DNA from: Zygnema cylindricum
Taxonomy: Eukaryota > Streptophyta > Zygnematophyceae > Zygnematales > Zygnemataceae
Assembly (NCBI GenBank): GCA_037447655.1
Contig: JBBHKE010001671.1
Coordinates: 124,001 to 188,000 of the forward strand
Length of the DNA: 64,000 bases
Reading direction: 5' to 3'
Under the pieces are notes generated by a model that was not told where the DNA came from, did no database searches, and saw only the letters and a list, made by a program, of their open reading frames with translations. The position numbers and the translations under genes were made by a program. How positions within the stretch are numbered: the first letter of the stretch is position 1; the number at the start of each line of letters is the position of its first letter. Shown piece by piece: positions 1,305 to 63,611 of the stretch.

Positions 1305-1368
1305 ATGGCAGATGATTGGTTGCTTATGCTGTTACTCATGGCGTTTGTTTCCCATACTTCCGGACAAC
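1305..1368 (+). CDS. Exon 1: signal peptide
   Basis: The ATG at 1305 lies in a favourable context (gccATGG). It opens a 21-residue segment starting MADDW, followed by a Leu/Met-rich core (LLMLLLMAFV) and a polar end (SHTSGQ), typical of a secretory signal peptide. The donor GTGAGT at 1369 leaves phase 1, which the next exon requires. The reading frame extends upstream to a TTG at 1251 without another ATG, so 1305 is the preferred start. Confidence 0.72.
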
Positions 1369-4300
1369 GTGAGTCCAAAGTGGTCCCGAAAACTAAGGAA
1401 ACCTCATCTAATGTCGGACATTTTGGGAAAAAAGGCACTCCAATTTTAAGGATCCAAATATGGGATAAGATCTAGTATTTGGGAAAAAAGGCACTCCAAT
1501 TTTTAGGCGAAAGTTTGGATAAGATCTAGAATTTCATTATTTTAAATTGCACTTAATTCATATTATAACCTTACCACTTCGCAAAGACAAAATTCTACTT
1601 GTTTCTAATCAAACTTCCCATGTCCAAACGAAAAAAAATGTTTGCCTTTTTTTGCATGTGATTTTGACAATCTGGACATGATTTGGCTCAAATGAACGTA
1701 AATGTCAATGCTTGTAAAAATTCTCACATTTTTTTGTTTTTTCTAGGTTTTTTTTCTACATAGTTTGTTGTTTTATTTATTTGTTGTAATACCCCATTCA
1801 GGATTGAAGCTTACTTTTGTTCTTTCTTTTGGGGGAATCCTACAGTGGGCGCACTTTACACTCCAATTGTTATCTCTTCGATTCCGTACTATTATGAGGG
1901 AGATTCCACGGGTTTCTCAAATGTCCACAATGGTGATTCCGGCCCTATCCTGGATTATTACGAGGGATCAGGTCCTGACGTCTTCTTCCAATACACAACA
2001 CAAGCGGAGCAGGTAAATCTAAACCCTAACGGTTCAAACTAGCTTTCCATTGGCTTACTAATGCACGGTTGGCTCCGCCAAAGACTTTGGATTTACCAAC
2101 ATTGCGTAGCATAAGCCAGAAGGCGCGAAGCAATGTGAAACTCAATTGAATGCGATGCTACTCATACTCTCTTACGTAAATGATAACCCCTCTTCTCGTG
2201 ATTCCTATTCCAAAGATTCTTAAACCCATCGTCACAACTTGTCCAAAAAAGAGAGGTAAGAAGGCTCACACTAAAAAATATCAGCAATTATAATTTCTAG
2301 GCAATGTGCTATAGTGTAATAGAAAGGGTTAAGATGGCAAGCCACCAAAAGGTCATTTGCCCAACAAAGAATAACAAGGGTGGGCCTTTTTGGAACAGCA
2401 GAAATAATACGCGCTGCTTTTACTTGAAGTTTACCTTCTTTTGGACAAGTTTTGACGAAGGTTCAAAGAAAGAAGGACGAAGGTGCAATATGAAAAAGTA
2501 GCGAAAAAATAAGCGCTGAATTTTTTTGATCTTCAAATGCTTGAGCGTGATGGTATTCCGTGCTCTTTGCTTGCACTCAAATCACACAAGCGCTGCAAGC
2601 CTGAAGCCTATACTGAGCGCGTCCATCTGATTGGCATCTAGTTGACACCTAATATTGCTAGCAATTATTCTTTTTCCACTGAAATTTACGCACCACCCTA
2701 ATTTTTGTCTTTTGACTAGTCATGAATGATGGGATTGCGTACACATCCGAGTGTGCCACACATAAATACGCACAGGGTACCAAGCGGAAGCGTTAGAAAT
2801 TCACAATGCAAATACACTCACAAAACAACACCATAGAAGTTCTCGGTAAATTACGCATAAACCAGTTGAAGCTTTTCCCACTCTTTCACACTAACTTTTT
2901 GTTCTCTCACACCTAAGCATGGAATATAGGTCACGGATACTGACCGTGAAACCATACCTAACTTAATCTCGAACAAAAATGAAGGGAAAGCCATCGAAAC
3001 CAAACTAAGAGACAAACACAACTCAACTAACCAAGGCATACATAACCAAAACAAGAATGAGCGTAGAACTACCATACCAAACTGAATCTCTGTTAGATTT
3101 CCACGAAATCCGCGATTCGGCATGTTCCACACAGGAAAATTGAGGTGTCCAAGGCTCCAACCTGGAACCTTTCGCTTAAGATGTGAACAAGCTAACCGCT
3201 ACCAGCTCGATGTTGAGCCTGGCGGGTCCATACCCATTTATTTCGTACGACTTCGAGTGTAAACGTACCACATTACACCCCGTATTGAACTAGCATCTAC
3301 GTGCCAATCCAACAATCATAATGCTCACAGAGAAACTAAGCCAATTCACACAATGACAAAGCTAACATTCCCCCTCTCATTGGGCAAATCCACACTACTA
3401 ATCATAACAAGCCTAACTTAGGACTCCGCCTAACGAACATAAAAACACAAGACTAGCCTCTAACTATTTATCTCTTGCCAAATTTCACACAAAATGCAAT
3501 TGAACCCTTCTAAGACCACAACCCGTAAACCGCTGTATCCCACTAATAGTGCACCTTATTTCATTGTAACTAACATGTCTTTGTAAATATATATGATAGA
3601 TCTAAGAATCCTCAATTCTATCACGACTAGTCTAATCTGTGCAGTGTTGTGGGTAGACGGCAAATACCAAACCGTTGTCCTCATACAGGAGGGGTGGGCC
3701 AAACCGAACTGGACACTACTTACGACAGTAGTGTTAGCTTTTGACATTTAACATTATCAGTTTTTGCGAGTTAAGGTACCTTCATATATGTAGCTTCAAC
3801 AAAGCAATCAACGTTCTGCCTAAAGTGTGACTCCTAACACCGAGATAAAGGCTATAGCAAAGAGAATCAAGGGGATAGGAAGTCACAAAAATCATCAGCT
3901 CACGTGCAATGTACCTCACCATGAATGGGTTACTCCTTAGCTATTCACCCTCCTCTAAATCAACATTTAACCTTTATCTTCAAACAACAAAGGCACGAGA
4001 ATGCCAATTATGATGCAATAGTGAGTCGGAGGATCCACAAAACAAGTCAGATGGCGATGCAGATTGAAACGATTCATATCTATTTATTACAAAGTCCCCT
4101 GTCTTACAAAAGAGATCTAACTCAAAATCCGACACAACAAGCTCTCCCAAGTTGTAACGTTATGCTAAGCTAACCAACAGGATGTCTTACTCAATATTAA
4201 ATTGTCACTACTCTCTCTCCCCCACCCTCTCTCTATCCCACTCTCTCTCTGTTTGTACCAACGTGTTGTGCTTGGGTAAAAGTCATGTCCACCTATCGAA

Positions 4301-7300
4301 ACAATCTTAGACCTGATACCAAAATTTTGGCGCAGGCCGAAGCGTCAACCAAATAGGCACATAAAATCCTGAGTTCGCGAGAAAAGTCCATCCATGGGAA
4401 CATTCCAACAGGCCGTGGTGACTGTTTATGACATTCCGGTGATACTTAATGATATGGTGAAGAGGATGTGGGCTGGTTCAGGTGGTTACAATATCAACTT
4501 GTGATGTACGAAATTTCGACACTGTGCTCTCCCTGTATAAGAATGTCGAGGGAAGTTGGGAGAACGTAATCAATGACGACAATGGATGCGAAAACAGCGG
4601 ATCAATTCTGCAATACCAACGCCTCCTTTATTCAACGACATACATGATAGTATGTCCCTTTTCTTAGCTAAGAATTGCATTCTGTTAGATGCCTTAGATG
4701 GGAAATATACTATGTTCTCTTGAAGAGTTGGCACCAACTGAAATTTCTGTGGATATGCAGTAATTTGAGTATCTGTGGACCAGTTTGTGCATTTGAAAGT
4801 ATGCTGCACGTGGAGGTGATCACGAATGGCGTTTTCCATTTGGCCCCTCTATTTTATTTAATTTTGCTTTGGAATTTCCAGGTAGTCGACGGTCGCTATT
4901 CTTCCAGCTTCGGAACTTTTTCCTTGAGATTTCAACTTCACGGTAAGAAGATCATTGACTATTGCCCACGCGGTGACGTAACTTTAAATCGCCAACATTT
5001 CCTACAACAACCGCCGTCAAATTATTGAAGCCTAGCTTTCCCTTGCACGGTCAAATTCCTGAAGCCTAGCTTTCCCTTGCATCGAGCTGAGTCCTTACAT
5101 CCTTAAATAAAGTGTTTCATTTAACTATCCATTTTCGTTTGTCAATTTACATGAATGGGGCGTTTCAAACCTTTATCTTAACACTCATGAACCATCGTCC
5201 TTATTATCTGGTCTGATCATCATCTACTAACCTGATCTTGTTTTTTTTTCTATTTTAAATGTCCCCCATTGTAAAATGACTACTATTTTTGTGCTCTTTT
5301 TTTGGGAGAATCCGACAGGATTAATTGAAACTCCCATTGTTATCTCTTCGGTTCCATATTATTACGAAGGAGATTCCACGAGTTTCCCGAATGTGCACAA
5401 CGGTGACTCAGGCCCTATTCAAGAAATTTACGATGGGTCAGGGCCTGACGTTTTCTTTCAGTACATTGCACAATTTGAGCAGGTAAATTCAAACCTTAAA
5501 CGTGAAGTTTTAAGGTTACCAATGCACTTTTCAAACCATTCACATGGGTTTTGAAACTCGAACATGGTTTTCCAAACTTCTCTTGCACACGGAAGTTTTC
5601 TCTAGAGATTATGAGTTTGAACAGCTAAACTTCAATTCTTAGGCTCAAATTATTCATTTATCCATATGCTTAGTTGACCCTTTTTCAACAAACGTATCAC
5701 CTATGAACCTACAACCGATTATTGGAATGATTAAGTGTTTCGTTTACACATATGGTTTTCAGCATGATGATATTTATTTTGTCATGTTTTTCCGTTCATT
5801 TATTTGGTTTTAACTATACACCGGATGTTGTCGAAAAGAATCGAAATTCTTGTTTTTACAAATTTTTAAAAGGGAACCTACACGAATTTGACTCTCCAAT
5901 AATTGAAGAGTTCCTGAGGAGCTAGAGCTATCAAAAACCACAGTACAAAAAATAACATTTTTGAAAATCTAATCGTCAATCGACAACTCCCGGAAAATTG
6001 TCCCTTTTACGAGAGCATAAATCAATGAACAATAAGCCCACAAAGGGTACTGTCAATTGCAAGCGAAAAGTTGATTTTGCCCAGATTTTCTCGTGGCCTC
6101 GCAAATTGTGCAATTTATGAGCCTCCTGCAAAAAAAATGGATTCGAAGGAAAATATCAAGTTAATAATCTGGAACCCAACCGGCAACATATTTTTGTAGT
6201 TTAGTTGGATTTGGATTTTTTTTCTAAAACTTTGCGTGAAGTTTACCATAATTTCAATAAGTATGTGTGCCGAATTTCCATTATAGAATCAAGTCTAAGT
6301 TAACATGGTTCAATTTTGAATGTTGTAATTTTTCCCTCGCAGTTTTAAACTTTTTTGTATTCCTTTCACAATTACGTTTTCAAAACTTACTAGTTAGGTC
6401 CTTACGACTTACCGTGGAAATTAGACAATAATAGTTTTTCAACGAGTTTTTTTTTTGGAATTATGATTTCCAGGTGGGGTGGATTAAAGAGGGCAGTGTT
6501 TGCTCCTACAATGGTGCTAGAGCGTCCTAAGGGCATACGGGCTATCCAGCGTTGAATGTATCCACGTTATCCTAATTTGCTTTCCTACGGTTGATCGCTC
6601 CGATCCTAGTTTTTTGAGCATGCGTTTACGACCTTGGAATTGAAAATCTGATTTTGTAAATTGATAATTTTGTTCCGTTAATAACACAGGTGGTCTCAAA
6701 CAACATAGACAATGGTAAGATCCTACGGTTCTTGTTATTTTGCATAGATAATTTTGCTAGCGACAAAGACTTTTCAAGTTGCCGAGTGGACACATAAGGT
6801 AGGAGCCGGTCACGAGGGATATTCTACGATATTCGATTGGAAACATTCTGAACTTCTCTCCGATCTTATGACAGAAGTGACCATCTTTCGTTGATTTGTG
6901 TACATATCGATGTGTTAAACCACATGATTTCGAAGACTTCGTGTAGCTCAAATTTTCCGCATCTCAAAAGAAATTGACAAATTTTAGTCTCCGCATATTT
7001 AAAAATATTTGACGCAATGTGCACGAGTTCGACTTAATGTGTACGAGCCGCTAGAAGTTGTAAAAGCACATGCCTGTAGATAACTGCTATTTTAACGCCG
7101 ACATGCCGGTGAGTCTTGGCGATATGATGAAGAGGATGCGGGCTGGTTCAGGTGGTTACAATATCAACTTGTGATGTACGAAATTTCGACACTGTGCTCT
7201 CCCTGTATAAGAATGTCGGGGGAAGTTGGGAGAACGTAATCAATGACGACAATGGATGCGATAACAGCGGATCGATTCTGCAATACCAACGCCTCCTTTC

Positions 7301-10300
7301 TTCAACGACATACATGATAGTATGTCCCTTTTCTTAGCTAAGAATTGCATTCTGTTAGATGCCTTAGATGGGAAATATACTATGTTCTCTTGAAGAGCTG
7401 GCACCAACTGAAATTTCTGTGGATATGCAGTAATTTTAGTATCTGTGGACCAGTTTGTGCATTTGAAAGTATGGTGCACGTGGAGGTGATCACGAATGGC
7501 GTTTTCCATTTGGCCCCTCTATTTTATTAAATTTTGCTTTGGAATTTCCAGGTAGTCGACGGTCGCTATTCTTCCAGCTTCGGAACTTTTTCCTTGAGAT
7601 TTCAACTTCACGGTAAGAAGATCATTGACTATTGCCCACGCGGTGACGTAACTTTAAATCGCCAACATTTCCTACAACAACCGCCGTCAAATTACTGAAG
7701 CCTCGCTTTCCCTTGCACCGTCAAATTCTTGAAGCCTAGCTTTCCCTTGCATCGAGTGTTCCCTTGCATTGTGCTGAGTCTTTACATCCTTAAATAAAGT
7801 TTTTCGTTTAACTATGCATTTTTGTTTGTCAATTTACATGGATGGCCCATTTTAAATTTGTATCTTAACACTCATGAACCATTTTCCTTATTTTGTGGTC
7901 TGATCATCTACCAACCTGATCTTGGTTTTTTTTCTATTTTAAACGTCCCCCATTGTGAAATGACTACTATTTTTGTGCTATTTATTTGGGAGAATCCGAC
8001 AGGATCAATTGAAACTCCCATTGTTATCTCTTCGGTTCCATATTATTATGAAGGCGATTCCACGGGTTTCCCGAATGTGCACAACGGTGACTCAGGCCCT
8101 ATTCAAGAAATTTACGATGGGTCAGGGCCTGACGTTTTCTTCCAGTACACAGCACAATTTGAACAGGTAAATCTAAACCTCGAATGTTTTGTTTTTAGGC
8201 TACTTGTATTCTTCTTCAAACTTTTTACATGGATTTGGAAACTCGAACATGGTATTTTAAACTTCTCTTTGTACATTTCTTTCTGGAAAAGGGTTTCTAC
8301 CCTTGTGATTATAAATTTGAATAGTTAAACTTTTACTTCCTAGAATTTAAATATTTAACTTTTATTTTTACACATACTTAGCACTGCATACCTCGGGTGT
8401 CGCACCAACTTTGAAGCATAGTTGACCCTTTTTCAACAAACGTTTCACGTATGAACCTTTAACAGATTTATTAAAATGATTAGTTGCTTTCGTTTATACA
8501 TATGGTTTTCTTGTTCATTACTAGTTTATTTGTCACGTTTTTCCATATTTTATGTTTGTTTTTACTGTCACCGGATATTGTCGTTTTTTTTTGAAATTAT
8601 TCAAAGCTACTTTCCTTTAAGAATTGGACACTCCAAAAAGGTAAGATTACCTAAGTGTAACAAAAACACAGTAAAGAATATCTATCTATTTGAAAATCTA
8701 CTTTATCAGTTGACGGCTTGCTGAAAATCGTTCTCTTTACGGTATCATAAATCAACGGAGAAAGAACACAATTGGTATTGTCAACTGCTAACGCAAACTT
8801 GAGTTCGCCAATTTTCCTTATGTCCCTATAAGTCGCCCAATTCATGAGCCTCTTGCTGCAATACAATTTTCGAGTTGGAGAGATCATCATGTCAATAATA
8901 CAAAACCCTAACCGGCAGCATATTTTGTTAGTTTTGTTTGATTCAAGCTCTTTCATAGAACGTGCGTGAATTTTACTATAAATTTAATATACATGTTTGC
9001 CGAAAGTCCAATTTAAAAGCTATTGCATCAAAAGAGATGGGAACGGAAGGAAAAACAATTTTTTTGATTGATATAAAATTGATGATTTCCTAGAAGGATA
9101 AGCTAGAAAAATTATTTAACGAGAATGTCATGACTGTTAATTCTAGCGATCCAAAGAGATCTTTCGCTGATCTAGAATGGTCTCTTGGCTCTTTAATCGA
9201 GAGGGTAAGTGATCTTTCCTTGTCTGTGACAAGAGAATCAAATCTGTAATCTAAATGCTAGAGCCTATTAGCTAGAAATAGACAAAAGATCAACCGCAAA
9301 GTAGCATAGCTAAAATTTTTATAATACTACGATTTTACTGACTGCTAGTTTACATCATTGAGGCTTCTCATCAAGGACAAGGCTTCTAATTAAGACTAAG
9401 CTAAACACCCTTCCTCTTGTTTAGAATCGAAGTCTTGTGGAGTCACGATGAAGCTCTAATTGAGGTTTGAGAGGAGCTTTGGTCAAAAAAATTCCATCTG
9501 GATAGAATTTTGGTAGTAGGTGAATGTAACGGTGCTAGAGGCAATATTTTCTCGGGTAAAATGAAACTGAATGTCGATGTGATTCGTACGTCGAATATGC
9601 ACTGGGCTACTTTTGAAGACGACGGCGCCTTGGGAGACAAAAAAATGTGGTGGCAGATGCGTGCAGAAGCAACAAATTGAAGAGGAGGGACTGGAGCATC
9701 CTTGGTGGATTGAGTGGCGACCATTTATTATTTTTCAGTAGAGAATAAAGCAATGTGGGGCTACTTCTTAGAGGACCAAGAGATAATGGCGCCATCAAGA
9801 GAAAAACATACGCTACAGTAGTGGTCGAGCAGCGAGAGTCTTAGTCACCCCCCAGTCCGCATCACGGATGTTGACAAAGTAGGGAGAGAAGATGCCAGAG
9901 AAGGTGAGTCAAAAGGACTTAGTACCTTGTAGGTAATTTAATATCCATTTGGCTGTGAGAAGCTGGTCGGCTACAAACTGACTTAATTGGCCCGTCGCAA
10001 CAGCACAGCGACACCACGATTGTAGCAGTATCAGGATAGGTGCAGGTCATGGCATACATAAGAATGGACCGAAACTGGTCATGTGTCCCTCCACAAGCCC
10101 CCAGAGTTTTTAAAAAGCCCAACATTGGCATCTAAGGGAGCTGAGAAAGGAATGCATTTAGACACATAGAATACGTTTAAAATCCCAGTGTTGTACTTTT
10201 TCGATGACAAGTACAAAGTTCTTGTGGAGCGGTCACGAGAAAATACTCGACTTCCCTTAATTATGTTGTTGTAAAATGAGTATTGAGCATTTTTTTGACA

Positions 10301-49300: not shown

Positions 49301-52300
49301 TTGAAGTACATGCTTTTTAGAAATGTCCATTCCTTATAAATTTTGATAAGTAGTATTCTACAGTTTTAATTTAGAAAAAAACCTCGACCAAGAATTGTTA
49401 TTGACACTAACAACGTTGAGGATTGTGTGTGATGTATAATTTTGGTATAATACGCTTTTTAAAACTTCCTCTCTTTTTAGCAACAAATCCCTTAAAAACG
49501 AGCATGGAACAACATTGGATCCGTAATGAGTAAATTATTTCTTATACTTCCAAATATTTACGAAGTTAATGCTTACAATTCAATCATCTGAAGTATTTTC
49601 AAACACTTGCTGACAGGCTAATGGTTAGAGGGACATCGTATCATACGTAATGAAAGGGTGAATCCCAGTGAATTTAATTCTGGATCATGTCGAGAAAGAA
49701 AGAGAATGTTAACAATGCATGTAATCTCCATCATGTGATAGAGATCCGGAAGCGTATTCTCTCACTATCTTTGTGACACTACCAATTAACAAAAACTTCA
49801 ACACTTGCAGAGGAGCGTGGTCTTGGACTTACAAGCCTCGATGGAGTCAATTATAAAAAAATGAACAGGTATTTCCGCTACGCAAGCTCGGGTTACTTAA
49901 CTCCAGATGAAGACAATAAGGCATCTTGGCTCGCAGCAACAAACTGGAATTGGGAGAAACGACGAGCCGTAACAGCCATCAAGGATCAACAAAATTGCAG
50001 TACGTAAAAAGACCAATAGAGTAAAAAATTGATATTCAAAGTAATTGAGGCATGTATTCATTGTGAATGACAGAAGAGGTTGTCATTGTTCGCACTTATG
50101 GGTAGATTGGCATTAGACTCTAAATTGTCATCAAAGAACTGGATTTATCTAAAGGAGATAAGGTAGCAGACATGGATTTCAGAAGTAAACGTTGAGATCC
50201 AGTGCTACTTGTTTTCTCCTTTGCATTTATGACATGTAAGATTTTCAAATAGTCTAAATTTCTTCGTGGACGTCATTCGATTTTCATTATTCATCATTAA
50301 ATTTTTTGACACGCATCTAAAATTATTTGGTTGCATCATAATAACATTCCATTGCATTTTGACATTTTTTTTTTCTAATTCCGTATTATGGCACTCTCAG
50401 GTATCTGTTGGATCTTTGCATCCATTTCAGCGATTGAGAGTGCTTATTACATTGCGAATGCGGGAATTCTGGACGTTCCCATCATATCAGAAGACCAGAT
50501 GTTTAAGTGTTCTAGTTTGATTCGTAACTGCACCGTCGGCGGTTGGCCGACAGAGGCTTTCGAATATGCCTCTAATAATCCCCTCATGTTGACCTCCAAA
50601 TATATCTCAGGCACTTGTCCAGGAGGGCAGGTAATTTATATGTCCCACACATTGGTTGAGCAAGGAAAGTATCACAACAAAAACAGGGACATTTTTTTCT
50701 TTTGTTCTTTTTTTAATGTTCTAACCTCTGAAAAAGAGCATTCAAATAACCACCCTTGACAACGTTTAGCTTTTCATTTTAAAACACCAGAAGATATTGC
50801 ATTTGTTTCATCCTTGTGATAATTGATTCCCTTCTGGTAAATAACTACAAATGGTGGGTGTGTGTGCAGGTCAGCAATTTAATGATATCATCTTTTGAGA
50901 GAGTTCAACGGGATGGATGGTTGGGATTGCTTTTGGCTCTCCAACAACAAACAGCGGTTGTCGGCATAGAAGCAAGTGGAAGCAGTTTTCTCAACTATGA
51001 TCCCAAAATGGTGATATTTTAACAAACTTGTACCTGCTTGCTGTTTGCACATGCAAGTGTGATCAAACACACTCCAGAATGTATTTTTGAGGTCTGATAT
51101 AAAGGTTCAAAAGTAACAGTTATTAGGGGGCTTGTGAGGTGTTCCAAACGACTAAAAGCTTTTTTTTCATGTAGGTGATAAGCTCAAAAGCGTAGACCAA
51201 TGTCAACAGGTAGAAAAAAGTACATTTCTTTCACATGGTACCTTGTAATATACAGACAACTTTCACCTTTATGTATTTACCTATGTTTAGTGATTCATAT
51301 CACAAAGGGTCGCCTCATGGAGCCAAAACCGCACCAATGGAGGCAAGCCCTTAGGATACTCCAACACAAATAGTAGTAACAAAAGGCCAAAACCTAATGT
51401 TCTGCCGTTTGTGTCCTTTTGGGTTTTCTGCAGGGGGTGTTTTCTGACGAAGACTGCTTTTCCGATGGAGTGGATCATGCGGTCGTTGTTGTTGGCTACG
51501 ATTTAACCTACAATCCGCCCTATTGGCTCATTCGGAACTCTTGGGGTCCGAATTGGGGCGACAAAGGATATATGCGCCTAAAAATTGCTGGAGGGCCCGG
51601 AATATGTGGGATAAATACCTTGCCAGCGCTTGTACCTATTGTGAAGTTACCAAGTAAGAAATAAACACCTTGCCAGCAGTTTTACCGATTGTGAATTCAA
51701 CAAGTAAGAAATAAATACCTCCCCGGCATTTTTACGATTGTGAATTTAACAAGGAAGAAATAAATACCTTGCCGGCATATTCGCCAATTGTGAATTGAAC
51801 AAGTGAACCTTCGCAGCGCTTTCAAACAATTGTGAATTACTGAATTTAACAAGTGAGAAAAATTATCTGCATGATCGCTGACATGTCATTTTTGGATCAT
51901 ATCTGTTTGAAACTTTACTTATTTGTTTTTATTTATATTCTTACCTTTATTCCGTTTTCTGTTTTTGTTCTTTTTTCAGCTAAATTACGGTTTTTTAAGG
52001 TTTTTCAGGGCTTTAAGAGCTTTAAGCTTTTTTAGGCTATTTTAGGTATTTTGAAGGGTTTTAAAGTTTTTTTGGAGTTCATTATTTTCTTTTGGGGGAT
52101 ATTAATTTATGGTCTTACCGTTTTTCGGGTTTTAGGGTTTTTATATAACTGTAAGTGACAAATGTCTGCCTTCAATTCATGAATACGTGTGTTTGCGGCC
52201 TTGTTCTCTCTTAGAATACAGAAAGATTGAATTTTCAGTGCTACTACATGGTTCAGGATTGTTGACGATAAACCTGTGGTGCAAGGGAAGGAACTCGTTT

Positions 52301-55300
52301 TCAGGGGATTGCCTGATAATGAAGAAAACTTTCCCAAAATGGACATGACATTGGTGGACATTGACTGAGACGGATGGACAGGAGTTACTGTGGACTAATG
52401 CTGATTAATGTCTAGTTGACATTGCACAAAAAATGATTTATGAATATCGCTGGTATTGTATCAAATATCCGCAATTTCCGCCAGTTAACATAGCTCGTTG
52501 TTTTTCATCTGTAATGATAATGAATACAATCTAATAATGTTAAAACAAGATGACATCACTTCTTTCATTTGATGAACATCGCGCAGCATTCATTATATTC
52601 GACCGATCAAAACCTCTGGTATTCTTTCATTTCTAAATAGAGATGGGCAGCATCTCTGTTTATGTAAAAGAGGACAAGAGGATTTTGTAGCTTATGTCCA
52701 GTAAAAGGAATCATCGTGAAACGGTGTATCAAAATAAGTATTTGGTAATATCTACAAAAGCTGGCTGTTCTGCATTCAATCGTCTTAACCGTTTTATAAT
52801 CCATGCTATTTTTCTGTCTTTGCAGTGGATCCCTGCAACCTCAACAACTTTGCCAGCAATACGCTCAATGTTGAATACGGTCCGGGTGTCATGAATCCAT
52901 GCGGCAACGGAGATTGTATTCCGTCAGGCACAACTAACTTATGCAGATGCGGCGATAACTTTGTTGCCGTTACCAACACGGATGGCAGCCAAACATGTGC
53001 TCCAGGTTTATCCGAAACATATAATTTCACTGATCGCTTCGCACAACTAGAAGAATGAATCACAAGTTACCATTGTGTACTGTGTGGTTTTGTAGTCACT
53101 GTACTTCAGAAAATTAATAGGCGTGTAAAGAATATGGTATCACGGGTATAGTTGACTTAATAATACATCCGTAAGTCTGTATTGCGGAAGAATCTTAACA
53201 CGAACAGTCGAACTCTTTATCTAATCCGGGTTACCTGTGGGTGTGGCCTTGCAGCGAATCCGTGTACCTTTGCCTCCAAAAATCCATGTGGCGTAGGTAG
53301 TTGCGTGAATTCTGTACTTTATCCGGGCACTTACCTTTGTATTTGTCCAATCGGCTATTCCCCTAGCGACACTGACATCCTGCTTACTTGTGTGCCTGGT
53401 GAGAAATAAAGTTGCAAACATATAACTCACCAGGATGTTCCACAAGGATAGAAAAAATAAACGCATCCGTCATCTGATTGCTAAACACAACACAGTGTGC
53501 TGAAGCCTTCAAACCATTTTCAGATGCTGTTAATGTGAATAGTTGTTTTCCAGGAATTTTCTTATCCGGATGCCCTATTCTTCGCACACTGTTTTGCAGC
53601 TGTCATCGTCGGGGAGCGCCTGAGTTTCTACACTGTGCCAGAGAGTGGAAATGTGACTTGTAATCTCATTCGTAATGCGTACGGAATCTCCAAAGAGGAA
53701 TTTGTAAAGCAGAACCAGGTAAAAGTACTTTCGTGATGTGTAACTTCTACTATTATGTTGACAAATCTTTTCGAAACCCATTAATCAAGAATTCGATCTC
53801 ATACTATTTATTCAATTAAAACTAGCTAGCCGAAAATACATAAACCAATAAAAATTGGTTTATCGAAACTGAATTCTTTTGATATCCTTACAAAATAACA
53901 ATATGACATTTTTCCTAAAAAACTCATGTTTTGGACTTTTTTTTCCGTTTTTGAGAAAACGAGTTGGCCAATTTATGCTCCAGTTCCAGTCAGAATTCTT
54001 TACAACCGCAATTCAAAAAAAATGTATATGTCCAGTTCGTCTCATTGCCCTTCCATTGGGATTGAACTGATATGGGCGACCTTTAAAAAAACTAGTTACA
54101 AAATCCCCTTTTATCGTTTCTCCGAAATATTTTAATGATTAAAAGACAAGATTTTGTATATAATTTCTAAAAAATCAGGAACTTGATAACTTCCCCAAAT
54201 TAAAACACAACTTATGCTCTTGCGCCTGTCATTTAAAAAATGAATAATATGACATAGGCTAAGTAATGGTGCGACATAGAGTCAAATATGCTCCCCCACG
54301 GGTGAGATACCCGGGCTGTTTAATGCTTGATGATGCATTGCCAAATGCTTAAGGCTAAAATTTTGGACGGGACAGCTGATTACACTGTAAATACCGAAAC
54401 AAACACCGAGCCACAAGCCACAAGCCTTATGTTGTCTTGCACTGATAAAATAGCGCTTATTTTCCTTTTTTGGCAGAACCTTAATTGCACCGCACCATTG
54501 GTGCCAGGGACAACTGTCAATGTGACTGCATATCGCAACTGCTCACTTCCCTATACTGTGGCGGAGGTTAGTTGTCACATTATATTGGGGTATATGAGAT
54601 GTGAAAAATTATCTGAAACTGTTTTTACTCGTATATGACTATTGCCCAATTCTGTTACTCTATTATGGTTGACCAGTGCTGCATGTCATTTGTGTCGAAT
54701 GAAGTCTAAGTTATAGACAGTAAGAAATTCCTAAATCATTTTTTTTTTTTGAATCGGCTTCATAATTTTTAGCAAATCAATTGATAGCAAAATTATTTTT
54801 TGGACTACATTGTCTTGTGCAGGATGACACTTGTGATTCAATCCAAACGTTGTTTAACCTAACAGCTCTTTCTGGACTCGATTCACCGAATCCAGACCTT
54901 GACTGCTCCAAGCTTCAGCCTTTTCAGCAGGTTTGACAAAATTTCTGCTGAAAATTAGACGAAGGATACCCAGTAGCTGAATGGATTCCAATCTCGATCA
55001 ATAATCATTATTTTTTTCCTCATTCAACGCCCTTTTTCTGTTTCAGGTATGCATCAAACGAGGGGATCTTCCGTACCCCTTGCCATGTGTAAAATCCTAC
55101 GAAGTCAAACCAGAAGATACATGTAGTTCAATTATTGCGAATCTTATGGATCCCGATGTTGAGCGGTTGGCGAATGTCATAAAGTTCTACACCCTCAATG
55201 TGGGAATATTCTGTTCTCGCATCGATAGTTCTATCACCACTGTGACAGGCTACAATGACGAGGTATGTATTTTTTCAAAACGTATGTAATTAGTCGTATT

Positions 55301-55693
55301 ATTGGAGAAAAAATTGCCTTCTAGAATTGACATGAACCTGATTATTTTCTTTCCTAAATTCCTAAACCTATCAGCACAAGCAATGCATTTTGTACATAAA
55401 TAATGGGAGTTTTTTTTGTTTTTTGGCATGTTTGTGATCAGGTTTGCCTCAAAGAAGGAGATTTGGGAAAAATTGTGGTGGGCTGCACTGGGCGAAAGCG
55501 GAAGGCCATCAGATTGACGCAAAAGGACAGCTGCAAGAGTCTTCAAAATTGCTTCATAAAGCCTGATAAAGTGTCAAGGAAAGACACATTTAAATCCTTA
55601 AACAATATACCATGCACAAAATTGTTATTGGTAACTATCTTGAAAAAATCTAATCCCGTCATCTGCGTTAGCAAAGATAGCCGATGTAAGTGA
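1305..55693 (+). CDS. Giant secreted modular protease: PPC x4 - Pro-rich stalk - LRR - EGF - C1A peptidase - EGF x2 - LysM x4 (34 exons)
   Basis: Exons: 1305-1368, 1846-2012, 4482-4649, 4882-4942, 5319-5482, 7152-7319, 7552-7612, 8003-8166, 11730-11897, 12105-12165, 12489-12652, 13460-13627, 13831-13891, 22945-28656, 31088-31126, 33411-33537, 34984-35055, 35271-35342, 46243-46314, 46676-46747, 46930-47001, 47202-47273, 48837-49189, 49811-49999, 50401-50630, 50870-51010, 51434-51653, 52826-53005, 53255-53398, 53600-53718, 54477-54566, 54823-54930, 55047-55262, 55442-55693. All join in phase; the total of 10,191 nt gives 3,396 residues and a TGA stop. Introns are GT-AG except one GC-AG. There is no transmembrane or kinase segment after the LRRs, so the product is probably secreted. 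LysM modules bind GlcNAc-type glycans in known families, and SPPP stalks are wall glycoproteins; a wall-bound protease is inferred. The weakest joins are 13891 to 22945 (poor acceptor) and the donors at 51011 and 53006. Splitting into two genes cannot be excluded without transcripts. Confidence 0.75.
1369..1845 (+). other. Intron 1
   Basis: A 477-bp GT-AG intron, phase 1. It contains a direct repeat of about 50 bp (about 1420-1475 and 1478-1530, sharing gggaaaaaaggcactccaat and ggataagatctag). Nothing else is recognised. Confidence 0.6.
1846..4942 (+). CDS. PPC-like domain 1 (exons 2-4)
   Basis: Exons 1846-2012, 4482-4649 and 4882-4942 (residues about 22-154). The module reads TPIVISSIPYYY, then a GSGPDVFFQY strand, then STCDVRNFDTVLSLYKN, NDDNGC, and VVDGR..SSFGTFSLRF. 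That layout (Asp-rich FDTVLSLY, NDDNGC, a Tyr-Ile-Val-Val-Asp-Gly strand and a closing GTFSL strand) matches the bacterial pre-peptidase C-terminal (PPC) beta-sandwich. The two conserved cysteines (STC, NGC) could pair. Inner introns are phase 0 and outer ones phase 1, so the cassette can duplicate without breaking the frame. The intron between its first two exons is 2.5 kb and contains a solo LTR. Confidence 0.75.
2013..4481 (+). other. Intron 2 (2.5 kb)
   Basis: Contains a minus-strand solo LTR (3091-3314). The rest has no coding signal beyond short random frames. A CT-rich patch lies at about 4210-4250. Confidence 0.6.
3091..3314 (-). mobile_element. Solo LTR of the TRIM family found at 42017-42530
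   Basis: In reverse complement it begins TGTTGGATTGGCACGT and ends GGAAATCTAACA, like the LTRs at 42017-42245 and 42303-42530. It keeps the order aatacggggt, aaatgggta, acatcgagctgg and an AGGTTCCAGGTTgGAGCC tract. The tRNA-like part is more diverged than in the 42-kb copy. 224 bp against 228-229 bp; no intact target duplication. Confidence 0.72.
5319..7612 (+). CDS. PPC-like domain 2 (exons 5-7)
   Basis: Exons 5319-5482, 7152-7319 and 7552-7612 (164, 168 and 61 nt; residues about 154-284). Acceptor cag|GA and donors GTAAAT, GTATGT and GTAAGA match those of unit 1. The second and third exons, and the 232-nt intron between them, are almost identical to unit 1 at a constant offset of 2,670 bp, so the duplication is recent. 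The family call is as for unit 1; a CUB-like or other beta-sandwich fold is the main alternative. Confidence 0.75.
5483..7151 (+). other. Intron between PPC2 exons 5 and 6
   Basis: 1.7 kb, AT-rich, no coding signal. Segments (about 5670-6350 and 6470-6560) are alignable with the intron at 8167-9010 and with 31960-32760, so they descend from the same cassette intron or a shared repeat. Confidence 0.5.
8003..12165 (+). CDS. PPC-like domain 3 (exons 8-10), with a GC-AG intron
   Basis: Exons 8003-8166, 11730-11897 and 12105-12165 (residues about 285-415). Same 164/168/61-nt cassette. The middle exon has STCHVRNFD instead of STCDV and NDDNGCDFWGS, and it ends at 11897 before GCAAGT. The other three units have GTATGT or GTAAGT at this exact place, so this is a GC-AG intron, with acceptor tttcag at 12104. 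The 3.6-kb intron before the middle exon holds a copia relic in antisense. Confidence 0.72.
8167..11729 (+). other. Intron between PPC3 exons 8 and 9 (3.6 kb)
   Basis: The first 0.85 kb is homologous to the intron of PPC unit 2. Then comes an antisense copia relic (about 9440-11260). The last 0.47 kb has no recognised content until the conserved pre-exon tract ending ggctggttcag. Confidence 0.55.
9440..11260 (-). pseudogene. Degenerate Ty1/copia pol relic, antisense inside the intron
   Basis: Minus-strand fragments in shifting frames read as copia reverse transcriptase: APVAKLAS, MEVQTAFLHGTLSEEI, FQPEGY and LLYGAKQTPR in order from about 10800 to about 10400, with an RNase H-like AVATGQLSQ..TAKWILNYLQGTKS tract near 9930-10030. 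Multiple stops and frameshifts; no LTRs recognised. Upstream, 10920-11260 encodes a Pro/Ser-rich stretch like the integrase-RT linker. Confidence 0.65.
12489..13891 (+). CDS. PPC-like domain 4 (exons 11-13)
   Basis: Exons 12489-12652, 13460-13627 and 13831-13891 (residues about 416-547). It has the same cassette lengths and phases. Sequence is more diverged than between units 1 and 2: VPYFYSGDSTGFPN, STCDVQYFDTVLSLYKN and VVDGRDSSSFGTFSLRIQ. The last donor GTAAGA at 13892 opens a 9-kb intron in phase 1, the phase at which the proline-rich exon is entered. Confidence 0.72.
12653..13459 (+). other. Intron between PPC4 exons 11 and 12
   Basis: 807 bp, AT-rich, no coding signal. Its last 60 bp share the pre-exon tract (gatgtgggctggttcag) with the other three units. 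Confidence 0.5.
15840..18090 (+). pseudogene. Copia relic Y (protease, integrase, RNase H fragments), nested in X
   Basis: Protease-like IIETSASHTC and YYADGKSV near 16660-16790. Pre-integrase zinc motif LCGGCAHGKNHKMPFPS near 17185-17235. Integrase VTFTDDLSKFTK near 17325-17365 with LDNVGEHV at the second Asp position. RNase H end ILWCDNQAAIAIASNP near 17860-17915. The stretch between integrase and RNase H is missing, so most of RT is deleted. Stops occur throughout. 16149-16310 carries about three imperfect 55-60-bp repeats. Confidence 0.7.
16310..16375. repeat. Microsatellite (CACAAAAA)n
   Basis: About seven uninterrupted 8-bp copies of cacaaaaa within the copia relic. Confidence 0.9.
18199..19159. 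mobile_element. Non-autonomous DNA-transposon-like element, 17-bp TIRs
   Basis: agggtactttcgcatgt at 18199-18215 is inverted at 19143-19159 with one mismatch. The inner right half contains repeated cgtcta/acgtc tracts. A second copy of the right end occupies 1-330, so the family is dispersed. No transposase frame. Confidence 0.6.
22945..28656 (+). CDS. Exon 14: giant proline-rich (SPPP, HRGP-like) stalk with about ten 96-residue repeats
   Basis: A single 5,712-nt exon encodes about 1,904 residues, rich in Pro, Ser, Leu, Thr, Lys and Arg and dominated by SPPP, PPKPP, PPRPPL and SPSPSP motifs. The frame opens directly after an in-frame TAA at 22941 and has no stop to 28656, where donor GTATGT follows in phase 1. 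From about 24300 to 27290 it consists of about ten near-identical 288- or 291-nt units (96 or 97 residues) containing PNPPLKPPVSLRSPPPKPPL and ILNAPPKPSLISPPS. Flanking proline sequence is irregular. Such sequences in plants and algae are prolyl-hydroxylated, glycosylated wall glycoproteins. The acceptor aacttaag at 22944 is weak but gives the right phase. Confidence 0.75.
29657..30707. mobile_element. Outer foldback element carrying a nested related element
   Basis: Outer ends ctacaccgcgaatcgtaa (29657-29674) and ttactattcgcggtgtaa (about 30690-30707) are inverted copies with two mismatches. Directly inside the left end sits a second element with its own perfect arms. Side-by-side insertion is an alternative to nesting. 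Non-coding, AT-rich. Confidence 0.55.
29675..30220. mobile_element. Inner MITE-like element, perfect 25-bp inverted arms
   Basis: 29675-29699 starts ctacaccgccaatcgctatt; 30196-30220 is its exact reverse complement. Element length is 546 bp. Same family as the element at 599-809. Confidence 0.75.
31088..31126 (+). CDS. Exon 15: proline micro-exon
   Basis: A 39-nt exon, phase 1 in and out, between ctcag (31087) and GTAAAA (31127). It encodes LPPPPRFGEWSPG and links the stalk to the LRR cap. Inclusion rests on splice sites, phase and proline content only. Confidence 0.55.
31127..33410 (+). other. Intron 15
   Basis: Contains a (CT)n then TA/CA-rich microsatellite at 31719-31850. A 0.8-kb segment (about 31960-32760) is similar to the PPC-cassette intron at 5670-6560. 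No coding region. Confidence 0.5.
31719..31850. repeat. (CT)n followed by TA/CA-rich microsatellite
   Basis: About eleven CT dinucleotides, then alternating tatatgtacatatgtgtatatacatac-type sequence. Confidence 0.9.
33411..33537 (+). CDS. Exon 16: LRR N-terminal cap
   Basis: Encodes GGILLKFKSGLIDKKDALSTW, then DVCLWKQVVC and VVIKL. This is the plant LRRNT_2 pattern LLxFKxGLxDxxxALSxW followed by CxWxxVxC. Acceptor atttcag, donor GTATGT. It ends in phase 2 inside a leucine codon, the standard junction of plant LRR exons. Confidence 0.85.
33538..34983 (+). other. Intron 16
   Basis: 1.4 kb between the LRR cap and LRR 1. Short open frames at 34165-34750 have no LRR pattern. Nothing else recognised. 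Confidence 0.45.
34984..35055 (+). CDS. Exon 17: LRR 1 (degenerate)
   Basis: A 72-nt, phase-2 exon between gatgtag and GTAAGT. It encodes LLASIVRGGNISEAITRLDTLREL: the second half (I..AITRLDTLREL) fits the LRR consensus, while the first half lacks the usual LxLxxN. It is accepted because length, phase and splice sites all match the following LRR exons. Confidence 0.62.
35271..35342 (+). CDS. Exon 18: LRR 2
   Basis: A 72-nt, phase-2 exon between caacag and GTAAGT, encoding DLSFNALNGPIPVSIGEM and RSLVSL. This is a textbook plant LRR (LxLSxNxLxGxIPxxI). The next intron, 10.9 kb, is filled with LTR elements. Confidence 0.9.
35480..36330 (+). pseudogene. Copia LTR/gag relic
   Basis: Gag N-terminal homology at about 36010-36170: FKFNGQYFYSWKYQLENV then SIWSILDGSESEPTDATANA, the copia Gag pattern (NG.NY..W..QM), broken by stops. 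It is preceded by an LTR-like tract with TATATAAAG near 35915. The gag resembles that of element X at 14930. Confidence 0.6.
36622..37100 (-). repeat. 3' LTR of the full-length copia
   Basis: Starts tgaaattttgtgg and ends cctcttttcctca on the + strand. It carries a box-B-like ggttcaaatctggacc with no complete tRNA fold around it. Confidence 0.8.
37107..37922 (-). pseudogene. copia RNase H / C-terminal RT part
   Basis: YRQIVGRLIYFMNC, RLDIAAAVGVLSR and TTWSDASYGD (RNase H Asp), TTGYVLQIGSGACCWSSKQQ, then after a stop VFCDNQAAISIAANPKHHF and DLMTKPVPSPK. The order is the copia RNase H. Interrupted at about 37455 and elsewhere. Confidence 0.85.
38039..38710 (-). pseudogene. copia reverse transcriptase
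   Basis: Starts near 38700 with the EAINTPESSRW linker end, then YKWVFKLKLNPD, VAKDMEIHQMDIKTAL, LIKSLYGLKQAPRQSN and the palm motif FIAIYEDDLLVLSKS (YEDD where most copia have YVDD). Stops occur near 38335, 38490 and 38505. Confidence 0.85.
38738..39106 (-). pseudogene. copia integrase-RT linker
   Basis: An acidic, low-complexity stretch (FDFENEEKEDGE, SEATPQYEVETDED, GGRRSSKRLQER) at the place where copia polyproteins have a variable Ser/Glu-rich linker. Confidence 0.7.
39303..39944 (-). pseudogene. copia integrase
   Basis: Pre-integrase zinc motif WYKRLGHVHLDRL and CSGCAQGKIHKLPFP, then core Asp in MLTITDDWSRYTKVYF, second Asp in EIRSDNGKEYTS, and Glu in QNGVAERVNRTL. The D-D-E set is present. 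Frame break near 39730. Confidence 0.9.
39981..40350 (-). pseudogene. copia aspartic protease
   Basis: IIDSGASMHMC at about 40335-40305 followed by VEIEYGDGRVETTSLVGTL and SDVLYIPQLNKNLVS. It sits in another frame from gag: the gag frame runs into a TAG within the same bases, so an indel separates the two. Confidence 0.85.
40325..41533 (-). CDS. copia Gag
   Basis: Open from the ATG at 41533-41531 (MGPPSRVPIFDGLDF) to 40325, about 402 residues. UBN2/Gag-like body: KLLILKSIAKG, SSPQIWISQV, TLMMKLLEEYENIINRL. Gly/Arg-rich stretch, then CCHC knuckle CHLCKTPGHYMADC. The start codon lies inside the primer-binding site. An upstream in-frame ATG at 41557 would fall in the LTR. Confidence 0.8.
   Translation of the reverse strand: MGPPSRVPIFDGLDFLYREMMMEGELFEKHLWGIVSGQIRCPPPLGFGETRFFGTSASTVGRTAATITEDEDEEGEEIVIEGEKGGVATQVTPLPKGISTAAPPTTATRVETERSEYEKWNYKDKVAKLLILKSIAKGIAIPLMHVKSSPQIWISQVNKYKSGSLQQQQLAENKIAANIYKGGSMNNYCNDLEALFGELESAGNSCSKRQRVNTLMMKLLEEYENIINRLQDIGDSNWKWDDTVGMILVKESTIELRRGSLKVKALSERADWRNRDEERGKDPYQNFGGSGQGGGRFDRQGRGTSRGGLCHLCKTPGHYMADCVRLADLRLKDGQGTYKDGGKKNAFLTEVLDEEVKEKIEPEEELEELLINPKNTENMSTFHGDKSVLSEERGIHPRMGRS
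41523..41537 (-). other. Primer-binding site, half-tRNA initiator-Met type
   Basis: On the + strand ggtgggcccataacc, the same 15 bases as the anticodon arm of plant initiator tRNA-Met. On the element strand the complement directly follows the LTR end (...tttca). Drosophila copia uses a cleaved 5' half of tRNA-iMet the same way. Confidence 0.8.
41538..42014 (-). repeat. 5' LTR of the full-length copia
   Basis: Starts tgaaattttgtgg and ends cttttttcaaca on the + strand. Matches 36622-37100 over its full length. Confidence 0.85.
42017..42530 (+). mobile_element. TRIM (miniature LTR retrotransposon)
   Basis: Two 228/229-bp LTRs (42017-42245 and 42303-42530), TGTTGGATTGG..GGAAATCTAACA, flank only 57 bp. 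Those 57 bp contain a primer site directly after LTR 1 (tggtattagagcc, matching the usual plant iMet site tggtatcagagc but for one base) and a purine tract gtgagggggg directly before LTR 2. There is no coding capacity, which defines a TRIM. It begins 2 bp from the end of the copia LTR; no target duplication is evident. Confidence 0.88.
42122..42193 (+). other. tRNA-like cloverleaf inside the TRIM LTR
   Basis: Folds by eye into all four arms: acceptor gagctgg/ccggctc (7 bp with one G-T), D arm gcat/gtgc with loop agtggta, anticodon arm ttcgc/gtgaa with loop agctgaa, variable aggtc, T arm ccagg/cctgg with loop ttcaaac, then A. Box A and box B are both present. Position 33 is G instead of T, so decoding function (CTG anticodon) is doubtful. 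The second LTR copy has lost the acceptor pairing. Confidence 0.7.
42540..45570 (+). pseudogene. Degenerate copia relic, sense strand
   Basis: Gag-like fragments at 42585-43080. Protease WLLDTGASEHM at 43475-43510. Pre-integrase-like LWHQRLEHHHTDDMR near 43970-44010. Integrase-like HPDVWVPT and VTFINAYTRMTLIYL near 44160-44275. Integrase end NGIFHESTNAYTIQQCG, LLDASLPTIFWAEGI near 45375-45520. Numerous stops; no LTRs found. Confidence 0.65.
43241..43345. repeat. Tandem duplication of about 58 bp
   Basis: Two copies of a purine-rich unit sharing gcgagatcagattagata and agacagcaaataa, within the copia relic. Confidence 0.75.
46243..46314 (+). CDS. Exon 19: LRR 3
   Basis: A 72-nt, phase-2 exon between tgacag and GTAAGT, encoding NLGNNQLTGGIPTSIQNL and TSLKQL. 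It continues the LRR after the transposon-filled intron. Confidence 0.9.
46676..46747 (+). CDS. Exon 20: LRR 4
   Basis: A 72-nt, phase-2 exon between cgacag and GTAAGT, encoding RLSSNSLTGSIPSVMMSL and PRLQNL. Confidence 0.9.
46930..47001 (+). CDS. Exon 21: LRR 5
   Basis: A 72-nt, phase-2 exon between tttcag and GTGAGT, encoding YLDDNNFSGTLPPNIGSL and NRLRV. Confidence 0.9.
47202..47273 (+). CDS. Exon 22: LRR 6
   Basis: A 72-nt, phase-2 exon between tttcag and GTGAGT, encoding DLSFNNFVGTIPKSFGSL and KKLED. Confidence 0.9.
47274..48836 (+). other. Intron 22
   Basis: 1.6 kb between LRR 6 and the final LRR exon. No LRR-like exon or known repeat was found in it. Confidence 0.5.
48837..49189 (+). 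CDS. Exon 23: last LRR, C-terminal cap and EGF-like module 1
   Basis: A 353-nt exon, phase 2 in and phase 1 out (residues about 2650-2768). It starts with NLRNNLLTGNFV and VDVSNNFLSG, continues to the cap motif NGNPSCAF, and then has a Cys-rich stretch ending VCGGHGYC, PCTCDVGYS and STC, an EGF-like spacing. Plant LRR receptor kinases would have a membrane segment here; none is present. Donor GTAAGT at 49190. Confidence 0.85.
49811..51653 (+). CDS. Papain-type (C1A) cysteine peptidase domain (exons 24-27)
   Basis: Exons 49811-49999, 50401-50630, 50870-51010 and 51434-51653. Family landmarks are in order: NWNWEKRRAVTAIKDQQNC (oxyanion Gln about 2827), SICWIFAS (nucleophile Cys about 2833), CTVGGWPTEAFEY (the GCxGG region), VDHAVVVVGY (His about 2969) and WLIRNSWGPNWGDKGY (Asn about 2989). 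Cys-His spacing of 136 is close to papain's 134. The usual GSCW is SICW. No I29 inhibitor prodomain (ERFNIN) is visible: the about 45 residues before the domain are unlike it, so latency, if any, comes from another part. The donor at 51011 (GTGATA) is unusual but is the only GT that keeps frame and homology. The catalytic set is complete, so activity is likely. Confidence 0.9.
51605..51860. repeat. 50-bp tandem repeat spanning an exon end and its splice donor
   Basis: About four diverging copies of ataaataccttgccagc...attgtgaa...caagtaagaa. The first lies in exon 27 and ends with its donor; copies 2-4 lie in the intron and include further gtaaga-like sites. Confidence 0.8.
51654..52825 (+). 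other. Intron 27, with possible alternative stop
   Basis: If the GTAAGA donor at 51654 is not used, translation ends at TAA 51662-51664 after Ser-Lys-Lys, giving a form without EGF 2-3 and LysM. The remainder is AT-rich with no recognised feature. Confidence 0.5.
52826..53005 (+). CDS. Exon 28: EGF-like module 2
   Basis: A 180-nt exon, phase 1 on both sides, after tttgcag. It encodes DPCNLNNFASN, then NPCGNGDCIPSG, LCRCGDNFVAV and QTCAPG. Six cysteines in CxC-type EGF spacing follow the peptidase. The donor G|GTTTAT is weak. The symmetric phase allows skipping or duplication of the module. Confidence 0.72.
53255..53398 (+). CDS. Exon 29: EGF-like module 3
   Basis: A 144-nt exon, phase 1 on both sides, after cttgcag and before GTGAGA. 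It encodes NPCTFASKNPCGVGSC, YLCICPIGYSPS and LTCVPG, six cysteines in EGF-like order. It resembles exon 28 and probably arose by exon duplication. Confidence 0.8.
53600..55693 (+). CDS. C-terminal LysM-like modules 1-4 (exons 30-34) and stop codon
   Basis: Exons 53600-53718, 54477-54566, 54823-54930, 55047-55262 and 55442-55693 (residues about 3136-3396), all joined in phase 0 after the first. Module 1 has FYTVPESGNVTCNLI..YGISKEEFVKQN then LNCTAPLVPGTTVNV. Module 2 has YTVAEDDTCDSIQTLF and LDC. Module 3 has SYEVKPEDTCSSI. Module 4 has LTQKDSCKSL, LNNIPCT and VICVSKD. Each repeats the eukaryotic LysM pattern Y(T)V..DTC.SI plus CxxxxxG-type cysteines and a V(C)I/V strand, though degenerate. 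LysM binds chitin-type glycans in known families. The protein ends at TGA 55691-55693. Fusions of papain-type peptidases with LysM occur in volvocine green algae. Confidence 0.78.
53719..54476 (+). other. Intron 30
   Basis: 758 bp. Around 54270-54320 a minus-strand tract (agcccgggtatctcaccc..gagcatatttgac) matches 31967-32005 and, loosely, 8390-8427: a dispersed repeat. Confidence 0.5.
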
Positions 55694-62492: not shown

Positions 62493-63611
62493 CTATTCAC
62501 TTAATCCCACTGCGTTGCTACAACACCTCTGCTTAGGAGCTGGGAGAGCTTTAGTGAGCATATCAGCAATCATTTTTGTATCTAGCAAATAACATAATTT
62601 TATCACTTTAGAGAACACTTTTTCTCTTACATAGTGTAAACCTTCATCCATGTGCTTGCTTTTGAAGTGATGACTCGGGTTAGAAGCAATGGCAATGGCA
62701 GCCTTGTTATCACACCAGATCACCTGTAGACCATCGTGCATGTATCCTAGTTCTTGTAACATGGATTTTACCCATAAGAGTTCTTTGAGGGCCGAGCTTG
62801 CTACCATATATTTTGACTCCATTGCCGACTATGCTGTCACCTTTTGAAGTTTGCTGCTCCAGCAGCAAGTACTGTTCCCAATTTGTAGAACGAATCCCGT
62901 GGTGGATTTCCGGCTTGGCATGTCGCCATAGCTTCCATCACTCCACGTTTGCAGTTTTACTTCTCCTCCCCCTAGTGTGAGTTTGAGGTCTTTGGTTTTG
63001 GCCAAATATCTTAAGACTCTCCTTGCTGCATCAAAGTCAGATTTTCTCGGATTCTCTAGACTCCTGCTCAATAACTGGACTGCTGCAGCAATGTCTAGAC
63101 GGTTACAATTCATGAAATATATTAAGCTTCCCACTATCTGTTTGTAAGGTTTTTGTGTCATAAAATCATTCTCCCCTGATTCTAAATACTCGGTAACAAT
63201 GACACCAGGTTTTGTCTCTTCTCCCTCTAACTTCTGCCGAAACTCCATTGAAGTTAGACTTCCTTTTGCCCACCTTAGTCCGTACTCATCTAACATGTTT
63301 CCAATAGCCTCCTTTTGAGTCAGTTTCATTTCTTTCTTATTTCTGTCCCTCTTTACCTGGATACCCAAAATATATTTTGCCTCTTTGAGGTCTTTCATCT
63401 TGAACCGTGAGTTTAGAGCAGTTTTGATTTTGTTAATTTCAGCCATTGATTTGCTTATTAATAGTAAATCATCTATACACACCGCTATATACACTATCCC
63501 ATTTTCACCCTTAAGAATGTAGACAAAGTGATCAGAACTTATCCTTTGAAATCTTAGGCTAGTTAGGAATTCATCTAGCTTCAGATTCCACTGTTTTCTT
63601 TGTATCCACAT
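62493..63611 (-). pseudogene. copia RT (C-terminal) and RNase H, right-edge element
   Basis: From 63611: WNLKLDEFLTSLRFQRISSD, VYIAVCIDDLLLISKS (palm), YILGIQVKRD, YKQIVGSLIYFMNCNRLDI, LQTWSDGSYGD, TGFVLQIGNSTCCWSSK; then a stop (TAG, likely from CAG) near 62830, followed by ESKYMVASSALKELLWVKS, WCDNKAAIAIASNP and DMLTKALPAP. N-terminal RT is missing. Confidence 0.88.

Follow-up and report, generated by a model that had tools for sequence, protein, structure and literature searches.

A putative LRR-papain-LysM protein of Zygnema cylindricum, probably extended in front by PPC-like units and a proline-rich stalk

The window, a stretch of 64,000 nucleotides of Zygnema cylindricum DNA, carries a chain of 34 exons that joins in one frame to a predicted protein of 3,396 residues (1305..55693, plus strand; Table 1). 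This chain had been proposed in a first-pass annotation, and rebuilding it from the raw sequence returned the identical count, with the terminal codon as the sole stop. The start codon lies in the context GCCATGG. The splice sites follow the GT-AG rule throughout, apart from one GC donor after position 11897 (11897/11898), and the longest introns reach up to 10.9 kb. Outside the LRR part, wherever one module type gives way to another, from the signal exon as far as the first LysM exon, the joint is in phase 1. The LRR joints are in phase 2, and phase 0 joints occur within the PPC-like units, in part of the peptidase and in the LysM block. Modules bounded in phase 1 are the usual signature of exon shuffling. 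Given its signal-like start, the product is probably secreted. A crude scan for membrane spans found no 19-residue window that was hydrophobic enough, and the signal-like start itself also stayed below that limit.

Table 1. Positions of the predicted exons and modules in the window
Feature	Position	Strand	Exons and remarks
Exon 1, start codon and signal peptide-like sequence	1305..1368	+	phase 1 donor; donor 7/8; hydrophobic score 3.16
PPC-like unit 1	1846..4942	+	1846-2012, 4482-4649, 4882-4942; phase 1-1 module
PPC-like unit 2	5319..7612	+	5319-5482, 7152-7319, 7552-7612
PPC-like unit 3	8003..12165	+	8003-8166, 11730-11897 (GC donor), 12105-12165
PPC-like unit 4	12489..13891	+	12489-12652, 13460-13627, 13831-13891
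Proline-rich stalk, single exon	22945..28656	+	1,904 aa; 9 complete repeats of 96-97 aa
39-nt Pro-rich exon	31088..31126	+	phase 1-1; stalk-to-LRRNT link in the one-gene model
LRR N-terminal cap (LRRNT_2)	33411..33537	+	phase 1 start; Pfam
Six LRR exons, 72 nt each, phase 2	34984..47273	+	34984-35055, 35271-35342, 46243-46314, 46676-46747, 46930-47001, 47202-47273
Last LRR, C-terminal cap, EGF-like 1	48837..49189	+	cysteine pattern beside P0002
Papain-type peptidase	49811..51653	+	49811-49999, 50401-50630, 50870-51010, 51434-51653; Gln, Cys, His, Asn
EGF-like 2 and EGF-like 3	52826..53398	+	52826-53005 (EGF-like 2), 53255-53398 (EGF-like 3); both phase 1-1
LysM-like units	53600..55693	+	53600-53718, 54477-54566, 54823-54930, 55047-55262, 55442-55693 with stop

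The N-terminal part consists of four units of about 131 residues, each encoded by three exons, which had been annotated as four PPC domains. Profile search of the spliced protein gave no match of the Pfam PPC model (PF04151) to any of the four. A protein search with all four units (7,989 candidates scored) returned eight proteins of 440-1,400 aa, and the precomputed Pfam column lists PF23759 and/or PF04151 for six of them. The relative P0028 contains four PF04151 stretches, and hhalign of a profile of the four window units against the four units cut from P0028 gave a probability of 97.4%. The assignment thus holds in kind but not by a direct Pfam match; as only the profile similarity to P0028 was found, we name the units PPC-like and do not file them as PPC. 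Ka/Ks between pairs of the four units, over 390 nt, ranges from 0.12 to 0.27, which indicates coding sequence under purifying selection. The remaining matches of the PPC-like unit were discarded as chance-like, namely three further Pfam rows far below the cut-off (best E 0.0016) and six PDB rows, all T-cell receptor chains or a ubiquitin variant, with E of 0.08 to 0.8. The best relative of this N-terminal part is P0027 (1307 aa, jgi), in which the window profile finds seven PPC-like units that all escape Pfam; a Cys-rich stretch separates the first six from the seventh. Within the locus, a 1.2-kb block that comprises exons of units 1/2 and 2/3 together with introns is repeated with 91.9% identity (4430-5584 and 7100-8269), corresponding to a fairly recent tandem duplication.

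The stalk is composed of 47% Pro and 14% Ser with 17 Tyr, and contains 44 SPPP and 54 SPP motifs. SPPPP, YVY and VYK are all absent from its 1,904 aa, and the stalk is not a classical extensin. The nine complete repeats differ in length by whole codons. Their differences at codon positions 3, 1 and 2 number 148, 138 and 101, a bias so weak that the repeats give no proof of constraint beyond the frame-keeping lengths. The acceptor at 22945 is weak and has no pyrimidine tract, so the exact start of the stalk is uncertain. Downstream, the 39-nt exon encodes LPPPPRFGEWSP between good splice sites. It is the sole Pro-rich candidate, and one of two phase 1-1 candidates, in its gap; none of 17 background phase 1-1 candidates, a set that includes the rest of this gap, reaches 40% Pro. 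The only candidate for an extra phase 1-1 exon in the gap at 13.9-22.9 kb has less than 20% Pro and was rejected.

The LRR exons of the C-terminal part are of the land-plant type. Scanning both strands for 72-nt phase-2 LRR exons recovered five of the six, along with two weaker candidates on the minus strand, and the sixth (34984) was placed by eye. Pfam matched LRR_8 (64.4 bits, E 8.1e-18), LRR_1 (61.2 bits), LRRNT_2 (26.9 bits, E 5.7e-6), Peptidase_C1 (PF00112; 132.7 bits against a cut-off of 20.7, E 2.7e-38) and LysM (PF01476; 43.6 bits against a cut-off of 20.9, E 2.8e-11), with two LysM stretches passing singly at the E 1 limit. Among the profile searches proposed in advance, those for Peptidase_C1, LRR_8 and LysM were therefore positive and that for PPC was negative. 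The Pfam EGF model marked one stretch, EGF-like 3, at 19.2 bits, below the curated cut-off of 21.5; EGF-like 1 and 2 were identified by their cysteine pattern.

This C-terminal part has relatives in other algae. Querying with the C-terminal 946 aa, of which residues 200-900 supplied the words and the scoring, returned 26 proteins out of 7,994 candidates scored, and a longer query with a shortened stalk (1,371-4,361 aa; 3,674 candidates) added five. The protein searches covered candidates whose length was 0.55-1.75 times that of the query; in two of them, the 7,994 and 7,989 candidates that share most words were scored. The relatives, at least 31, comprise 28 Closterium proteins, one labelled jgi/Mesen1 (presumably Mesotaenium endlicherianum), one eukprot transcript and one lgn protein; among the matches named, the family members (Closterium, Mesotaenium) all belong to the Zygnematophyceae, in line with a streptophyte alga as the source, as is the land-plant type of the LRR exons. 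The precomputed Pfam columns assign LRR to 15 of the 31, LysM to 16 and legume lectin (PF00139) to 20. LRR, C1 and LysM occur together in nine (P0002, P0003, P0005, P0006, P0013, P0018, P0019, P0035 and P0036), so the first-pass statement that no described family was known with the full set of modules is wrong as regards these three domains. A search for the same domain order, also proposed at the outset, succeeded for the core: LRRNT-LRR-EGF-C1-EGF-EGF-LysM was read in P0002 and P0035. P0002 matches residues 88-883 of the 946-aa part in one alignment with 36% identity; for the second copy in P0035, the match covers residues 32-897 with 29% identity. P0035 and P0036, each with two C1 matches, appear to be predictions that each fuse two tandem copies. 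Since the relatives align across LRR, C1 and LysM, the core represents a protein family, not open frames strung together by chance.

The N-terminal half gave a different picture. The window-unit profile found PPC in none of the 31 relatives. A Pro-rich 40-residue window occurs in three of them (P0001, P0015 and P0024), in no case demonstrably before an LRR. Numerous records among the 31 carry a partial label, so these N-terminal absences are weak evidence. The architecture, which the first-pass annotation had called unrecognised, is present, as far as the LRR-C1-LysM core is concerned, in Closterium and in one or more further algae, while the combination of PPC, stalk, LRR, C1 and LysM had no second case among the protein candidates scored.

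Among the relatives, P0002 has an AlphaFold model (13 rows; mean pLDDT 52.4, pTM 0.36). Its LRR is confident, with values of 65-91 over residues 91 to 210, and its papain part is poor; given this low confidence, we make no claim on domain packing. At the C-terminus the model forms four beta-alpha-alpha-beta units, the first two at 71-87 and the last two at 28-74, as expected for LysM. By analogy with this model, the LysM block of the window protein is read as four LysM-like units. NCBIfam matches of three relatives, to bacterial proteins and mostly in the LRR part, were far below cut-off and were disregarded.

Alignment of the window peptidase to ervatamin B and ficin placed Gln, Cys, His and Asn all in register, which we take to be the active-site residues of the papain family. 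Pfam reported no I29 propeptide in the window protein. Across 30 aligned family C1 copies, the catalytic Cys position is occupied by Cys in 14, Ser in 15 and Val in one. Ser replaces Cys in P0001, P0004, P0005, P0007, P0010, P0011, P0014, P0015, P0017, P0019, P0020, P0022, P0038 and P0039, and such domains occur in members with and without a lectin domain. The Val copy (copy 2 of P0035) appears to stem from a frame error in the predicted sequence. The catalytic position lies outside the alignment coverage in P0009, P0023, P0026 and P0037; read by eye, the site is GASWAF in P0009 and SDCWAY in P0037. These counts are non-independent events, because P0004 and P0038 are identical across the catalytic region. 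In a C1-EGF tree, the window protein groups with P0035/P0036 and P0009 at an open fork (85/81), and its branch is long (1.46), for which the tool flags a risk of long branches meeting. The tree neighbours P0035 (copy 1) and P0036 (both copies) also retain Gln, Cys, His and Asn. The signal-like start, the catalytic residues and the existing family with this core support the original proposal of a papain-type protease with LRR and LysM in one predicted protein.

We consider it fairly probable from the sequence that the PPC-stalk half and the LRR-C1-LysM half constitute one gene. Across the joint, the stalk exon with its phase 1 end meets the 39-nt exon, which is phase 1-1, and this exon in turn meets the phase 1 start of LRRNT; these compatible phases, together with the Pro-rich nature of the short exon, favour a single gene. 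A rather unlikely alternative is that two or even three genes adjoin here: a PPC-stalk wall glycoprotein that would span 1305 to roughly 31126 and might in turn fall into two genes at the 9-kb gap between 13891 and 22945, and a separate LRR-C1-LysM peptidase that, like its relatives, would have a first exon for a signal peptide of its own, located within 31127-33411. This arrangement is consistent with the lack of PPC in the 31 relatives, with the poor acceptor at 22945 and with the 9-kb gap, and the phase 1 start of the LRRNT exon would also suit a signal-peptide exon. It also agrees with the N-termini of the LRR relatives that begin with Met (n=7), five of which (P0002, P0005, P0018, P0019 and P0038) have a hydrophobic start with the LRR following at once; in P0039 the LRR N-cap is immediately preceded by a hydrophobic stretch, and the N-terminus of P0016 is not assignable to either pattern. 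Candidate first exons were found ahead of the LRR at 32467/32482-32593 (donor 6/8) and, under a relaxed filter, at 30847-30907 (donor 5/8), and ahead of the stalk at 19518-19578 (donor 6/8). However, we rejected them since they arise at the chance rate: the strict filter (hydrophobic score >=1.8, donor >=6/8; relaxed, donor >=5/8) yields one candidate on each strand of the 4.7-kb gap, compared with rates between 0 and 0.83 per kb across six other window stretches. The window thus has a signal-like exon at 1305 and none above chance level directly ahead of the LRR. Moreover, the 39-nt exon lies only 2.3 kb ahead of LRRNT and, in separate genes, would require a further terminal exon, of which none was seen; for a promoter and the ends of two genes, 2.3 kb would probably be tight, as against introns of up to 10.9 kb. 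Long gaps are normal in this window, because mobile elements sit in introns within modules that must be one gene.

Two further readings concern the state of the protein itself. The C1 fold could serve for binding instead of cutting, yielding a pseudopeptidase or receptor-like decoy, as may hold for many Closterium paralogues. The 16 aligned C1 copies with Ser or Val at the catalytic position, the GASWAF of the tree neighbour P0009 and the unreported I29 propeptide agree with such a role, which nevertheless appears improbable for the window copy, given that its Gln, Cys, His and Asn are all present, as they are in copy 1 of P0035 and both copies of P0036. It is more improbable still, to the point of being barely credible, that the locus is a decaying gene or an artefact of joining unrelated open stretches. 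The one GC donor, the one weak acceptor, the mobile elements in several introns and the weak codon-position bias of the stalk repeats would fit decay, but 3,396 codons without an internal stop, low Ka/Ks among the PPC-like units, an intact catalytic site and relatives that align across LRR, C1 and LysM all argue against it.

Taken together, the best overall explanation, to which we assign about an even chance, is a nuclear gene for a secreted, wall-held and glycan-targeted cysteine protease of the algal LRR-EGF-papain-EGF-EGF-LysM family that has been extended in front. Phase-1 exon shuffling would have added the four PPC-like modules and the giant stalk, which would be rich in hydroxyproline. 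The secreted protein would be held in the extracellular matrix by its stalk and LysM units, the LRR might pick a partner, either a protein or a peptide, and targets near the bound glycan might be cut by the papain domain. From sequence features we infer a common transcript of the two halves, a secreted product with hydroxylated prolines, its activity as a protease, its binding of glycans and its biological role; the domain types suggest that the stalk tethers the protein to the wall and that glycans are sensed. The role may be in wall remodelling, mating or defence, among which the sequence does not discriminate. The most complete version, in which a single gene encodes a wall-anchored 3,396-residue protein that carries an LRR ectodomain, an active papain protease and LysM units on a long Hyp-rich rod with four PPC-like caps, is more tentative and falls somewhat short of even.

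In land plants, LRR and LysM ectodomains are among the main sensors of peptides and glycans in immunity and symbiosis, and they are normally carried on kinases. If the proposed explanation is true, one chain unites sensing ectodomains (LRR and LysM, with legume lectin in Closterium) that land plants place on separate receptor kinases. The Cys-to-Ser split within the family offers a direct route to testing protease versus pseudoprotease function. If the PPC-stalk half is indeed joined, an LRX-like wall anchor would have been gained through exon shuffling.

What was known of this protein appears to be its LRR-C1-LysM core, as unnamed predicted algal proteins, and the PPC-like and stalk extension appears to be new here. 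The Closterium and other algal predicted proteins share with the window the combination of LRRs, a papain-type domain and LysM in one protein, but they have no PPC (0/31), and no long N-terminal stalk was seen in them. Conversely, the legume-lectin domain of 20 of the 31 relatives, located between EGF and C1 where read, is absent from the window protein. C1A peptidases occur with LysM in green algae and early plants, and C1A-lectin combinations were not kept in vascular plants, according to the accessible part of PMC6362431; the C1A peptidase-LysM proteins share these two domains with the window protein, and that part mentions no LRR, PPC or stalk for them. The nearest anchored LRR design appears to be that of the land-plant leucine-rich repeat extensins (LRX), which likewise combine an extracellular LRR with a Hyp-rich anchoring domain. 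As described in the excerpt of PMC4477543, LRX have the LRR first and the extensin last, with no peptidase or LysM described, whereas the window protein has the reverse order and lacks SPPPP, YVY and VYK; we thus rejected its assignment to LRX by the reversed order and the missing SPPPP. The nearest algal HRGP designs seem to be the chimeric algal extensins (PMC10762512) and the Chlamydomonas mastigoneme HRGPs MST1 and MST3 (PMC11015965), secreted proteins with tandem beta-rich domains and a Pro-rich segment. In the portions of these two papers at hand, the beta domains are Ig-like, their order differs from that in the window and neither LRR nor peptidase is mentioned. An LRR-C1-LysM protein is not named in the available parts of PMC11289646, PMC11096116 and PMC10834447, nor is the architecture described in the titles or opening abstract lines of the open-licence literature matches listed.

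The window also contains several mobile elements. A Copia element on the minus strand (36621-42010), with LTRs of 474-476 nt that are 91.6% identical and a gag_2 domain, is placed inside the LRR2-LRR3 intron. RVT_2 pieces of Copia lie on the minus strand at 62832-63701 and, below the curated cut-off, at 10491-10961 inside PPC-like unit 3. In the 13.9-22.9 kb gap, remnants of Copia integrase and RNase H were read by eye at 17163-18047 (+); two of these stretches had no Pfam match. A 515-nt element (42017-42531) is bounded by two LTR-like repeats of 229-230 nt that are 90% identical, with no target-site duplication seen. The first repeat is followed by TGGTATTAGAGCC, which we take to be PBS-like, and a G-run stands ahead of the second. 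ARAGORN predicted a tRNA-Gln in the first repeat and none in the second, diverged copy. The 515-nt element resembles the Helenus type of TRIM, which among plants has been characterised only from Selaginella, as stated in the available part of PMC10886601. A third LTR-like copy (3091-3314, minus strand, 77%) sits in the intron that separates exons 1846-2012 and 4482-4649 of PPC-like unit 1.
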